In this document: in pieces, positions 5,344 to 10,057 of the stretch
Position numbering within the stretch: the first letter of the stretch is position 1
Layout: the number at the start of each line of letters is the position of its first letter
Assembly: GCA_003554945.1 (NCBI GenBank)
Contig: PWHN01000020.1
Span: 1-12,238, forward strand
DNA from: a bacterium
GTDB lineage: Bacteria; T1Sed10-126
Length of the DNA stretch: 12,238 nucleotides
Reading direction: 5' to 3'
Notes under the pieces: generated by a model
The model's database searches: none
Told to the model about the DNA's origin: nothing
Seen by the model: only the letters and a program-made list of their open reading frames with translations
Position numbers and translations under genes: made by a program

Positions 5344-6552
5344 TTAGCTTTCAAAAGAACCTGCCCGGCGGTTACGCTTCCGGTAGAGATAATCAAGCAG
5401 AGATATGGGGTTTCGAAAGCGAGCCCCAATAATCATGGCTGCAATGATATAAGGTTTGTAGCGGGCCTCGTAGTAAGTGTTGATACGGGCCTGCTCAAAT
5501 ACTTCCTCAGTGACCTCGCCATGTTCACAGGAGACCCCCGATATGTCGGCGGGCAGACAGTGCATATAAAGAGCGTCGCCGTCCCGGGTTAAATCCATCA
5601 TCTCCCGGTTGCATTCCCAATCTATGTGCTGTTTGTTGCGCTCCAGGCACTGCTGCTCAAGTTCCTCAAGGCCTGATTCGTTTTCTTCCTCAAGAAGTTT
5701 TGTCTTCTCCTCCATAACGCTGTAGGGCGCCCAGCTCTTCGGATAAACAACGTCGGCGTCCTCAAAGGCAGCCTCCATGGAGTTTGACTGTGTAAAACTA
5801 CCTCCGCTCTCTTCAGCGTATTGTTTGGCTTTGTCCATTGTGTCATCCATCAGGTCATAGCCTTCAGGATGAGCCAGGTGGACATCCATACCGAAGCGGC
5901 TCATCAGGGTGATAATACCCTGGGGAACTGATAGCGGTTTGCCGTAGCTGGGTGAGTAGGCCCAGGTCATGGCAATTTTTTTACCTTTTAAATCTTCCAG
6001 ACGTCCGCCGCAGTAGCGCTTTAAATGGAGAATATCAGTGAGGGTTTGAGTCGGATGATCAACGTCACACTGCAGATTCACAATTGCCGGCCGATGACCG
6101 AGAACTCCCTCAGCGAATCCCTCGTCCAGAGCCTCGCCTACAGTTTTCATATACTGATGGCCCTGCCCGATGAACTTGTCGTGTCGGATGCCAATAACCT
6201 CAGACAGGAAAGAGATCATATTTGAGGTCTCGCGCAGCGTCTCCCCGTGTGAAACCTGGGTCTTTGTCTCATCAAATTCGTTCAGAGTCAGCCCCAGCAA
6301 ATTAGCAGCAGAGGCGAAAGAAAAGCGAGTACGGGTCGACTTGTCTTTAAAAATCGAAATTGCCAGCCCGGTCTGAAAGAAGCGGGTGGAAATATTGTTT
6401 CGATAAAGAGTGCGAAGGAGCTGAGCCATTTTTATTGTGGCTTTAATATCCTCCCGGGTTTTGTCAGTTGTCAGTAAAAAGTCCTTGCGGTAGGTGTCAA
6501 AATCTAAGTTGCGAAGTTGATTTAGCTCATCAAGAAAACTTTCCATTTTCAA
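5344..6552 (-). CDS. ygeW: Knotted carbamoyltransferase YgeW
   Basis: Member of the aspartate/ornithine carbamoyltransferase superfamily, in the YgeW group with a C-terminal knot. The carbamoyl-phosphate site is clear: STRTR at 72-76, HPTQ at 166-169 and HCLPA at 331-335. Long blocks such as AMTWAYSPSYGKPLSVPQG (194-212) are typical of YgeW. Length, 402 residues, is close to the E. coli protein (about 396). Its true substrate is not settled; in anaerobic purine-degrading clusters it is proposed to remove a carbamoyl group from a ureido compound, making carbamoyl phosphate. The start is TTG 6552, six bases after AGGAGGAG; ATG 6546 would be 12 bases away. It is the last gene of the operon, 30 bases after ygeY. 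Confidence 0.95.
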   Translation of the reverse strand: MKMESFLDELNQLRNLDFDTYRKDFLLTTDKTREDIKATIKMAQLLRTLYRNNISTRFFQTGLAISIFKDKSTRTRFSFASAANLLGLTLNEFDETKTQVSHGETLRETSNMISFLSEVIGIRHDKFIGQGHQYMKTVGEALDEGFAEGVLGHRPAIVNLQCDVDHPTQTLTDILHLKRYCGGRLEDLKGKKIAMTWAYSPSYGKPLSVPQGIITLMSRFGMDVHLAHPEGYDLMDDTMDKAKQYAEESGGSFTQSNSMEAAFEDADVVYPKSWAPYSVMEEKTKLLEEENESGLEELEQQCLERNKQHIDWECNREMMDLTRDGDALYMHCLPADISGVSCEHGEVTEEVFEQARINTYYEARYKPYIIAAMIIGARFRNPISLLDYLYRKRNRRAGSFES

Positions 6553-6582: not shown

Positions 6583-7800
6583 TTAAGAGTTAGTAGTGTT
6601 CAAATAATTTTCAGGAAATCGGGCATACCAGGCTGCCGCCTTGATCAAATCATCCACGGCTACCTGTTCGTTTACCGTGTGAGCATAGACTTCGTTGGCG
6701 GGCCCAAACCCAATTGTTGGAACTTCAAACATTCCCATGGTGGCGACTCCGTTTGTGGAGAATGTCCATTTGTCGACCAGAGGCTCCTCGTCGAAGACGT
6801 CACGGTAAGTCTTAACTGCTTTTTTACAAAGTTCGTGTTCTTCGGGGAGAACCCAGACAGGATAATATTTTTCTGTCGGATAACGAAAACCGGTGTAGCT
6901 GGGCGTGTCGTAGTTGAGGATTTCGACCTCAACCTTATCAGTATCAACCCCGGCTTTTTCGATTGCTTCGCGTACCTCTTCAACAGCAGATTCTTTTGTT
7001 TCGCCGGCGGTAAGTCGTCGGTCGAGGTGAATGTAAGCCTCATCGGGGACGGCACAGAGCGAAGGGGTTTTGCAGTCAATATAGCTAACAGTTACCGTCC
7101 CTTTACCCAGAAAATCGTCGACCAGCAATCGTTCGTTTAACTTTTCAATTTCAGCAACAATTTTAGCCATCCGATAGATAGCATTCTCGCCGCGCTCTGG
7201 AGCGGAACCGTGGCAGGAGACCCCGCTGGCCCGAACTCCAATCTCCATGCGACCGCGCTGTCCGCGGTATATATTTAAGTTGGTTGGTTCAGTTATTACA
7301 ACACAGTCGGGATCCATTTCAGTCTCGTTTAGAATATATTGCCAGGGGAGGCCGTCACAGTCCTCTTCCTGGACGCTACCGACGATGTAAAGTGTATAAT
7401 CGTCACGGAGGTCAAGGTCGTTTATAACCTGGCCGGCGTAAACCATTGAAGCCATTCCGGCGAGCTGGTCGGTAGCGCCGCGTCCGTAAATTACTCCGTC
7501 TTCAAATTTGCCCTCAAAAGGGTCCCACTCCCATTCATCAAGACTTCCGGTGTCCACGGTATCGATATGCGCGTCCATAGCTATAGTAGTCGAACCGCTG
7601 CCAATTTTACCGATTACGTTGCCCATTTTGTCGATCTTGACTTCGTCGAAGTCACATTTGGTCATTTCATCGGCAATGCGTTCGACAACTTCTTTTTCTT
7701 CGCAACTGATACCGGGGATCCTGATTAAATCTCGCATAAATTGTATTAATTCGTCTTCGTATTCGTTCAGTCTGTCAAAAATTTGAGCAGTTGTTGTCAT
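6583..7800 (-). CDS. ygeY: YgeY, M20-family metal-dependent hydrolase
   Basis: Cytoplasmic amidohydrolase/deacylase of the M20/ArgE-DapE superfamily, in the YgeY group annotated as selenium-metabolism-linked from its co-occurrence with selenium-dependent molybdenum hydroxylases. Di-metal ligands are visible: H78-x-D80 (DAHIDT), D111 (GRGATDQ), catalytic E145-E146 (VQEED), E171 (EPT) and H374 (YAHTVNE). The lid/dimer motif HGSAPERG is at 197-204. The 405 residues are close to the family size. ATG 7800 has AAGGAG eight bases upstream. It lies between the SerK-like gene (108-base gap) and ygeW (30 bases). The substrate is unproved; an acyl or ureido derivative of a diamino acid is the usual proposal. 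No in-frame UGA or missing ligand was seen. Confidence 0.95.
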   Translation of the reverse strand: MTTTAQIFDRLNEYEDELIQFMRDLIRIPGISCEEKEVVERIADEMTKCDFDEVKIDKMGNVIGKIGSGSTTIAMDAHIDTVDTGSLDEWEWDPFEGKFEDGVIYGRGATDQLAGMASMVYAGQVINDLDLRDDYTLYIVGSVQEEDCDGLPWQYILNETEMDPDCVVITEPTNLNIYRGQRGRMEIGVRASGVSCHGSAPERGENAIYRMAKIVAEIEKLNERLLVDDFLGKGTVTVSYIDCKTPSLCAVPDEAYIHLDRRLTAGETKESAVEEVREAIEKAGVDTDKVEVEILNYDTPSYTGFRYPTEKYYPVWVLPEEHELCKKAVKTYRDVFDEEPLVDKWTFSTNGVATMGMFEVPTIGFGPANEVYAHTVNEQVAVDDLIKAAAWYARFPENYLNTTNS

Positions 7801-7908: not shown

Positions 7909-8343
7909 TCAGGGGAGCAGTTTATCCAGTGGATAATCGACCCGCTGTTCGGGGAACTGAAGCACGTGGCGCGTACTTTTTGCCGGAAAAACATCATCGC
8001 TGAGACCCATTCTTAAAATTGACTGCTTGGTTAACGGATCAATCGGACAATTCGGCCGAGGTTCGACAATTATTTGCGAGCGATCGAAGTAATCGACCCG
8101 GATAATAGGAGTCCGTCGGGCGCCCAGGGTTCGCATGGCCATAGCCCGGTGATGACCGTCCAGGATGACGTTAAAATCATTATCAACCAGTATTGGGTAG
8201 TCGACAAATCCCATCTCTTTGATCTGCTTAACAATCTCGTCACGCCGATCCGGATAGGTTTGCTCGTGCTCGCGCAAATGGTGAGGACTAACCAGTTCCA
8301 CCTCATGCGCAAGCTCGCATAAATCTGTATTATTTAGTTTCAA
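7909..8343 (-). CDS. ParB/sulfiredoxin-fold protein resembling free serine kinase (SerK/SbnI-like), short form
   Basis: A 144-residue ParB N-terminal-fold protein. Counting from the TTG start, HEQ lies at about 26-28 and DGHHRAMAMRTLGARR at 62-77, followed by VDYFD (83-87). The C-terminus reads STRHVL (123-128) and ends VDYPLDKLLP. From memory, Thermococcus SerK has the same three blocks (HEQ with the catalytic Glu, DGHHR, and a TTRHVL-type end), but with about 100 more residues between the last two. SerK and SbnI phosphorylate free L-serine. Here the middle is shortened, so kinase activity is uncertain. The start is TTG 8343, six bases after GAGGAG; ATG 8349 directly abuts that site. Its place between a PLP enzyme and ygeY argues for a metabolic role rather than plasmid partition. 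It could instead be an amino-acid sensor or regulator. Confidence 0.75.
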   Translation of the reverse strand: MKLNNTDLCELAHEVELVSPHHLREHEQTYPDRRDEIVKQIKEMGFVDYPILVDNDFNVILDGHHRAMAMRTLGARRTPIIRVDYFDRSQIIVEPRPNCPIDPLTKQSILRMGLSDDVFPAKSTRHVLQFPEQRVDYPLDKLLP

Positions 8344-8372
8344 ATTCATCTCCTCACAGGGATAATGGTAAT

Positions 8373-8404
8373 TGCGGGTCCCGCTTGCGTAAGCAGGACC
8401 CGCA
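8373..8404. other. Intercistronic hairpin in the minus operon
   Basis: TGCGGGTCC (8373-8381) pairs with GGACCCGCA (8396-8404), and an inner GCTT/AAGC extends the stem after one mismatch. It lies in the gap between the PLP-enzyme gene and the SerK-like gene. T5 follows it only on the plus strand, so it is not a good terminator for the minus transcript. It may stabilise or divide the operon mRNA, or be a dispersed repeat. Confidence 0.6.
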
Positions 8405-8433: not shown

Positions 8434-9912
8434 TTAGAGCAAGCCGACGCGGTCGTTAAAGTTCTCAATCAGCTCGTTAATTTCTTCGCCCTGCTGGTGA
8501 ATTTCATTCCAGTATTCGGGCCAGCGATCCCACTGTTCGTCCAGATCGTCGGCGTCAAGGCCCTGTTGTTCAATCCAGGTAAAATATTTGAGGTTGTGGA
8601 TGCGTCGTTTTTCCTCGTGTTTGAGGTCGAGCACGAATTCTGTATCCTGGCCGAGCACGCTGCGTTCAAAGTCTCGCGCCGCGTCATCCTGTTCGTAGCC
8701 TGGGTTGGCCTCGCGCATCTCCTCAAGTCGTGAACCGTAGAGCTGCATGGAGTCTGTCCAGACGGTAACCAGTGCGTCATTTTCCGAAAGTTCATACTTC
8801 TTGGCGTATTTTATACAACCGAGAACGTTGGCAATGCCAGAGATACCCATCAGGTCCAGGTTGTCTACCACTTCCGAATCAACGCCCTTGTTTTTGAGGA
8901 AGTCTCGGCCCTTAGGCTCATTGAAAAAGCGAACAAGGTCCATGCAGTCGTTGTCGTCAATTCCGACTACTGCATCAGTGCTGCGGACGTTGTGAATCCA
9001 GGGCACATGTTTATCGCCAATACCCTCGATACGGTGGGCTCCGTAACCGTTTTCAAGCAATGTCGGGCACTGAAGGGCTTCACCAACAGCAAGCTTGCTG
9101 CCCGGGAACTCGTCCTTCATACGTTCACCGCTGCCCAGGGTGCCGGAGGAACCGGACGTGAGCACTGTGGCAGCCAGCCGCTGTCCATCTTCCAACTCAG
9201 CTTCAAGAACGTCTTTCATCGCTTCACCGGTAACTTCGTAATGCCAGAGGTTATTGCCAAATTCGTCAAACTGGTTGAAGATGACAATGCGATCTTTATA
9301 TTCGGGGTCTTCGCGCAGCTCCCAGCACTTGTCAAAAATTTCCTTGATGTTGGCTTCTCCGCCCGGAGTGGTGAATGTCTCGCCGGCCACCTTCTCCAGC
9401 CATTCGAAACGCTCCTTGCTCATTTCTTCGGGCAGAATGGCTATGGAATCACAGGCCAGAAGGGCAGAGTTGTAGGCGCCACCGCGGCAGTAGTTGCCGG
9501 TTGAAGGCCAGACAGCCATCTCGTTTACAGGGTCAAACTGACCGGTCGTCAGCCGTGGGGCCAGACAGCCAAAAGTGGCGCCAACCTTGTGGGCGCCGGT
9601 CGGGAACCATTTTCCGACCAGACAGAATATTCGGGCGTCAACCCCGGTCAGTTCGGAAGGTAGTTCGACATAGTTTATGCCGTCGTAAAGACCACCTTTT
9701 TCCACCGGTTCGTTTTGCCAGGTGATGCGAAATAAATTCCGGGGATGAACCTCCCAGAGTCCGATATCTTTTAGTTCTTCCTTCACACTATCCGGTATTA
9801 ATTCCGGGTTTTTCATCTGCTCAAGCGTGGGAATAATAATGTTGCGTTCACGGGCGACTTCCACCGACTTTTCGAGCTGTTTTTCATTAATGCTAAGGTC
9901 TATCATTGTCAA
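8434..9912 (-). CDS. Fold-type II PLP-dependent enzyme (TrpB-like), first gene of the ygeY-ygeW operon
   Basis: A 492-residue enzyme of the tryptophan-synthase-beta/cysteine-synthase fold. The probable Schiff-base lysine is K109 in PTGAHKVGATFG, close to the TrpB motif TGAHK. The substrate loop is STGNYCRGG (137-145), the glycine-rich phosphate loop TSGSSGTLGSG (252-262), and GISGIAN sits at 356-362. About 60 residues precede the core, and an acidic, Trp-rich tail of roughly 120 follows. It is not YgeX: E. coli diaminopropionate ammonia-lyase is about 100 residues shorter with different motifs. A beta-elimination or beta-replacement on a serine- or diaminopropionate-type substrate is likely; the exact reaction is unknown. 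The start is TTG 9912, six bases after AAAGGAG; ATG 9906 is the alternative. The leader is about 110 bases long. Confidence 0.85.
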   Translation of the reverse strand: MTMIDLSINEKQLEKSVEVARERNIIIPTLEQMKNPELIPDSVKEELKDIGLWEVHPRNLFRITWQNEPVEKGGLYDGINYVELPSELTGVDARIFCLVGKWFPTGAHKVGATFGCLAPRLTTGQFDPVNEMAVWPSTGNYCRGGAYNSALLACDSIAILPEEMSKERFEWLEKVAGETFTTPGGEANIKEIFDKCWELREDPEYKDRIVIFNQFDEFGNNLWHYEVTGEAMKDVLEAELEDGQRLAATVLTSGSSGTLGSGERMKDEFPGSKLAVGEALQCPTLLENGYGAHRIEGIGDKHVPWIHNVRSTDAVVGIDDNDCMDLVRFFNEPKGRDFLKNKGVDSEVVDNLDLMGISGIANVLGCIKYAKKYELSENDALVTVWTDSMQLYGSRLEEMREANPGYEQDDAARDFERSVLGQDTEFVLDLKHEEKRRIHNLKYFTWIEQQGLDADDLDEQWDRWPEYWNEIHQQGEEINELIENFNDRVGLL

Positions 9913-10028: not shown

Positions 10029-10057
10029 AAGATAGCCGTAAAGCGAACCTTTGTCAA
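10029..10057 (-). promoter_or_regulatory. Sigma-70 type promoter of the PLP-ygeY-ygeW operon
   Basis: On the minus strand TTGACA (10057-10052) is a perfect -35 box, followed after exactly 17 bases by TATCTT (10034-10029), four of six to the -10 consensus. Transcription would start near 10022 and run into the PLP-enzyme gene. Confidence 0.65.

Follow-up and report, generated by a model that had tools for sequence, protein, structure and literature searches.

By its sequence, the minus-strand gene at 7909..8349 of the window (the whole 12,238-nt stretch of contig PWHN01000020.1 that we analysed) encodes a compact ParB-fold protein of the SerK/SbnI type and not a DNA-binding ParB. On the same grounds it is a novel, shortened form of a familiar kind of enzyme, set in a ygeY-ygeW operon in which the gene order on the minus strand is PLP enzyme, compact SerK, YgeY and YgeW; in the literature searched, we found no description of a compact SerK in such a context. 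The initial annotation had taken the gene for a minimal SerK/SbnI-like enzyme or sensor linked to diaminopropionate or ureido-amino-acid metabolism. That interpretation appears right in kind and is partly supported, with the kinase function remaining putative. Quite possibly, the protein is a free-serine kinase that supplies O-phosphoserine to the adjacent PLP enzyme.

The open reading frame starts with an ATG at 8349 and encodes 146 aa. An alternative in-frame TTG start at 8343 (codon 3) gives a protein of 144 aa; GAGGAG lies six bases 5′ of it, a better spacing than for the ATG, and the homologue at L003 is TTG-started as well. The feature first called at 7909-8343 is real and corresponds to this TTG version on the minus strand, the plus-strand reading frame at 7909-8343 being closed. 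The protein shares 58% identity with its homologue in another genus of the phylum, and the 144 aligned codons differ at 50 first, 27 second and 98 third positions, a concentration at third positions that indicates purifying selection. The HEQ, DGHHR, VDYFD and STRHVL motifs listed initially are all found in the protein, and the accompanying match to the NCBIfam SerK model (NF053625, E=8.6e-19, 67.6 bits, in two stretches) takes the resemblance beyond chance, although the score is far under the SerK equivalog cut-off of 380 bits.

Other family models gave lesser matches, with E=6.7e-5 for NCBIfam SbnI (NF033589) and a weak E=0.059 for canonical ParB (TIGR00180), and a Pfam scan of the protein returned no match. 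When the protein was compared with PDB sequences by phmmer, SerK was found again (1vk1, 5e-11; TkSerK 5x0b, 5e-10), in two co-linear pieces covering SerK residues ∼23-96 and 204-241. SerK residues ∼97-203 (about 107) have no counterpart in the compact protein, which agrees with the longer SerK middle part noted in the initial annotation. A profile of 15 compact homologues (A2), run against PDB sequences, matched SerK at 6.8e-21 (1vk1) and 1.4e-20 (5x0b) and SbnI at 4e-12, compared with 0.006 for a ParB-domain nuclease and 0.016 or worse for ParB-family chains, and the proposed likeness to SerK and SbnI over DNA-binding ParB is borne out. For the single protein and the compact profile alike, SerK is the top family and the top PDB match, which favors a kinase. 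The features of canonical ParB (an HTH domain, a C-terminal dimer domain and a ParA-binding motif) were not found in the 144 aa. The window's own genome has a separate ParB-like gene, at G000:C117, whose product carries a GLGRGLDALLPE motif.

The residues expected of a kinase are kept. In the alignments, E29 (codon at 8263..8265, minus strand) corresponds to the catalytic Glu, TkSerK E30 and SbnI E20; the DGHHR loop (residues 64-68; 8146..8160, minus strand) places D64 at TkSerK D69 and SbnI D58; and the C-terminal K124-S-T-R-H128 block (7966..7980, minus strand) falls on TkSerK 221-225, a second stretch with an E of 3e-5 with the compact profile. Six positions (E29, D64, H67, R68, K124 and H128) do not vary among the 15 compact members, so that the catalytic Glu and DGHHR loop are retained as had been proposed, and the anticipated C-terminal likeness is seen in the match to the KTTRH of SerK. 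This block is conserved despite the loss of the ∼107 residues before it, a further point in favor of a kinase. E20 and D58 of SbnI are reported as necessary for kinase activity in PMC9641203, which cites Verstraete 2018. Two TkSerK PDB entries carry Gln or Ala in place of Glu at position 30, the position aligned with E29; as these are not the wild-type residue, the depositors must have mutated Glu30. One position departs from the pattern. TkSerK Trp102, which we take to line the serine site, is common to SerK and SbnI and is shared by the majority of the rhizobial compact proteins, and it is Pro97 in the window protein; because of this replacement, the acceptor may not be serine. A structure predicted from two input sequences was of too low confidence to be of use (pLDDT 35, pTM 0.22).

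Two characterized enzymes frame the comparison. SerK (TK0378/PF0380; NF053625; PDB 5x0b, 1vk1) is an ADP-dependent free serine kinase of 242 aa that has in common with the 146-aa protein the ParB-fold domain, the catalytic Glu, the DGHHR loop and a KTTRH-type C-terminal block, in co-linear order. The compact protein differs in lacking the 97-203 segment, in its Trp102-to-Pro exchange, in being bacterial and in having the genes for a PLP enzyme, YgeY and YgeW as its operon partners. SbnI (NF033589; PDB 5ujd, 6nr6) is a serine kinase for staphyloferrin B synthesis, with which the compact form shares the E20/D58 equivalents and a genetic link to a cysteine-synthase-fold enzyme and diaminopropionate chemistry. 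SbnI is longer (∼254 aa) and ends in a VTRFNI block where the compact protein has STRH, and its known context is a siderophore operon rather than urate genes.

The first gene of the operon encodes a cysteine-synthase-like fold type II PLP enzyme of 492 aa (8434..9912, minus strand). The compact gene follows and is in turn followed by genes for a YgeY family M20 hydrolase (6583..7800, minus strand; TIGR03526, 581 bits) and the knotted carbamoyltransferase YgeW (5344..6552, minus strand; TIGR03316, 596 bits), with gaps of 84, 108 and 30 nt. Both scores exceed the curated cut-offs, and the initial placement of the gene inside a ygeY-ygeW operon stands. A promoter-like TTGACA-17-TATCTT, recognized by consensus match only, lies 5′ of the operon (10029..10057, minus strand), and no terminator-like sites were found on the minus strand from 10300 to 5000. 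A strong hairpin (GCGGGTCC...GGACCCGC) occupies about 8374-8404, in the gap that separates the compact gene from the PLP gene. We do not claim a regulatory role for it, as no such hairpin was seen at the homologous locus and it lacks a T-run in the direction in which the operon reads. An Rfam scan of the window gave no match.

A search at order, class and phylum level provided one other genome of the phylum for comparison, G001, from another genus (its contig corresponds to PWOD01000160.1 of MAG CSSed10_354m). The PLP, compact and YgeY genes are found there in the same order, and the contig stops after YgeY, before YgeW. When genome contigs were searched for the compact protein, there were no matches outside the same-phylum MAG. 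The conserved linkage to ygeY/ygeW, which the initial annotation had named as a check, is confirmed for ygeY only in this phylum, in two genera, and the second contig ends before ygeW. Similarly, the new functional link to these genes holds as an operon context within one phylum, whereas the rhizobial compact genes are tied to SbnA-like genes instead.

In Escherichia coli, the reductive uric acid pathway comprises ssnA, ygfK, ygeW, ygeY and ygeX; YgeW and YgeY take the ureido groups off 2,3-diureidopropionate to give 2,3-diaminopropionate, which YgeX converts to pyruvate and ammonia (PMC12507026). The window's genome also encodes SsnA (G000:C104, 511 bits, over cut-off), adjoining a YgfK/PreA-like fusion, and a diaminopropionate ammonia-lyase, YgeX (G000:C45, 520 bits against NF006058), each on a contig other than the window's. 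Because these accompany them, YgeW and YgeY of the window most likely belong to reductive urate breakdown, and the operon is more aptly regarded as one portion of a reductive-urate set, with a cysteine-synthase-like PLP gene in addition, to which the initial annotation had given no weight. Unlike in E. coli, the PLP enzyme and compact SerK head the operon and the pathway genes are spread over several loci. An XdhC-like gene was also seen in this genome. In both genomes of the phylum, a glyA-like (serine hydroxymethyltransferase) gene is found close to ssnA, separated from it by an FtsH-like gene (L136 3786-10692, L144 6123-11260), and in the f29 family it directly adjoins ssnA (L145-L147). A further locus of the window's genome (L139 2502-7811, G000:C100) has, in a row, two more carbamoyltransferases of the ornithine/acetylornithine type, an apparent carbamate kinase, a threonine-synthase-like PLP enzyme and another transcarbamylase-like ORF. 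In other phyla, genes of these kinds are again found close to the PLP family.

The PLP enzyme itself scores far under every curated cut-off. A plain cysteine synthase is less likely (75 versus a cut-off of 351), as the genome has a separate CysK that is over its cut-off (462 bits), and the enzyme is not needed as a missing YgeX, which is present. Of 386 genomes, 63 carry a member of its family at E<=1e-20, one of them by a weak match; a PF00291 neighborhood count alone cannot separate this family from diaminopropionate ammonia-lyase. SsnA (E<=1e-95) is found in 51 of the 63 carriers, leaving 12 genomes with the PLP family only, 10 with SsnA only and 313 with neither (Fisher p=1e-41 over the 386 genomes, a correlation uncorrected for phylogeny). 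Diaminopropionate ammonia-lyase was not found at E<=1e-40 in 38 of the 40 genomes with both PLP family and SsnA that were tested; both exceptions, the window's genome and G001, belong to this phylum, and the G001 copy is in two fragments at contig ends. The lyase is present in G022, which has SsnA without the PLP family, and was not found in G119, which also lacks the family. These correlations in the sampled genomes suggest that many phyla use the PLP family in place of YgeX. As 58 other sampled genomes have the PLP family without a compact SerK, O-phosphoserine is not an obligate partner of the enzyme. At three loci of the f29 family (L109, L110, L112), the PLP-family gene lies directly before panB and panC of pantothenate synthesis.

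Compact relatives occur on plasmids, where 93 records contain a match. These proteins, annotated as "ParB N-terminal domain-containing" in rhizobial, Methylocystis, Nitratireductor and Serratia hosts, resemble the window protein in length and invariant residues at ∼26-35% identity; most keep the Trp102 equivalent, and no link to ygeY/ygeW appears in the neighborhoods seen. We examined 13 annotated neighborhoods, which come mostly from related rhizobia and hence are not independent events. In eight (seven rhizobial/Nitratireductor/Serratia operons and one from A. vitis), a cysteine-synthase-family (SbnA-like) gene adjoins or is near the compact gene, and SbnA was the best NCBIfam match for both such neighbors tested. 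One Agrobacterium operon has annotated sbnA and sbnB with the compact gene in the sbnI position, together with three IucA/IucC genes, an SbnG-like aldolase and an SbnH-like decarboxylase. A further two likewise have a staphyloferrin-type layout with sbnA/B not in view, one is at an NRPS locus and one is without any such genes. A link to diaminopropionate metabolism, suspected at the outset, is thus seen for the compact form in general, through plasmid relatives beside SbnA-like or staphyloferrin-type genes. The Sinorhizobium fredii CCBAU 45436 protein (L152 6986-7411) has DDYHR for DGHHR and is possibly a decayed copy. A search of viral contigs gave three matches of ∼35 residues each, and Vibrio phage Va2 encodes a compact SerK-like protein (L173 2947-3399) near the start of its 128-kb genome.

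Among whole genomes the compact form is rare, being found in six of the 386 (G000, G001, three of the f29 family and G200). It occurs together with YgeW in four genomes (of 6 and 23; p=1.3e-4), with SsnA in five (of 6 and 61; p=4.5e-4) and with the PLP family in five (of 6 and 63; p=5e-4), p-values that overstate the evidence, since two families account for all five genomes. In the second of these, f29, genes for YgeW, SsnA and the PLP enzyme accompany the compact gene, but on different contigs. There the compact gene adjoins a gene for a pyruvoyl-dependent arginine decarboxylase (L035, L036, L038), with an arginase-family (agmatinase-type) gene next in two of the three loci (L036, L038).

A free-serine kinase coupled to the PLP enzyme is consistent with the homology, the kept catalytic residues, the operon order and the compact relatives that occupy the sbnI position of diaminopropionate/siderophore clusters. 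In such an enzyme, the ParB/Srx-fold domain would bind the nucleotide, E29 would activate the serine hydroxyl, and the DGHHR loop would help to place the nucleotide and its phosphate, with the active site closed by the C-terminal K-[ST]-T-[RK]-H block. The product, O-phospho-L-serine, would be an activated serine for the cysteine-synthase-like PLP enzyme encoded upstream, which may carry out β-replacement (or β-elimination) on it and pass its product to a 2,3-diaminopropionate/ureido-amino-acid pool shared with YgeY and YgeW. We infer serine as the substrate, the roles of single residues, the coupling to this particular PLP enzyme and which nucleophile takes part. In favor of the coupling, the window's compact gene comes after a same-strand PLP gene of cysteine-synthase-like type, much as its plasmid relatives stand beside or near SbnA-like genes; against it, the f29 compact gene sits beside the arginine decarboxylase and agmatinase-type genes instead.

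The same fold and chemistry could serve a substrate other than serine, such as a ureido- or hydroxy-amino acid or another small hydroxy- or amino acid, which we consider possible but rather improbable. The f1 and f29 compact proteins form one clade (support 0.987, FastTree on 126 columns, with the SerK/SbnI rows taken from printed alignment pieces); the Trp102 equivalent is missing from this entire subgroup, and the loop after that position is three residues longer. All five subgroup genomes have SsnA and the PLP family, and four have YgeW over cut-off. However, this co-occurrence comes from two families only, the catalytic Glu, DGHHR and STRH are unchanged, and the assayed relatives use serine (SerK, PMC5120207; SbnI, as cited in PMC9641203).

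It is unlikely that the protein is a non-catalytic sensor or regulator whose ParB fold binds nucleotide or serine to control the operon or the PLP enzyme. A regulatory role is ascribed to SbnI and EdeB as well (PMC9641203), but the window protein has no HTH, its 144 aa leave little space for a DNA-binding domain, and a pure sensor would not require the Glu that is invariant across 15 divergent members. A role in serine assimilation has a similarly small chance. Here SerC and SerA would convert O-phosphoserine to 3-phosphoglycerate and bring serine/glycine carbon into central metabolism, with the operon position reflecting co-regulation only. This role was proposed for TkSerK (PMC5120207), a full-length SerK-like gene directly follows serC- and serA-like genes in G269 (L037 6480-9171), and glyA-like genes lie near ssnA in both phylum genomes and next to it in f29; yet the window is without serA or serC, and the plasmid compact forms sit with PLP β-substitution enzymes rather than with these genes. 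An orphan DNA-binding ParB/partition protein, which would account for the fold and the weak TIGR00180 match, is very improbable and is rejected at the sequence level by profile E-values of 7e-21 for SerK versus 0.006 or worse for ParB-type proteins, by the missing HTH and C-terminal dimer domains and by the ParB-like gene elsewhere in the genome.

If a serine kinase is indeed encoded here, serine would be phosphorylated by a minimal kinase of about 130 residues. "ParB N-terminal domain" annotations beside SbnA-like enzymes would then be a usable marker for O-phosphoserine-fed pathways, among them those for siderophores, diaminopropionate and possibly purine nitrogen catabolism. More tentatively, and with some doubt, free-amino-acid kinases of 130-146 aa may form a widespread family, one branch of which was recruited to the reductive urate/diaminopropionate pathway, where it would supply O-phosphoserine or a related phospho-amino acid to a PLP enzyme that in most other phyla substitutes for YgeX. 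The PLP family, which follows SsnA across many phyla, could catalyze the final reaction of reductive urate breakdown in organisms that lack YgeX.
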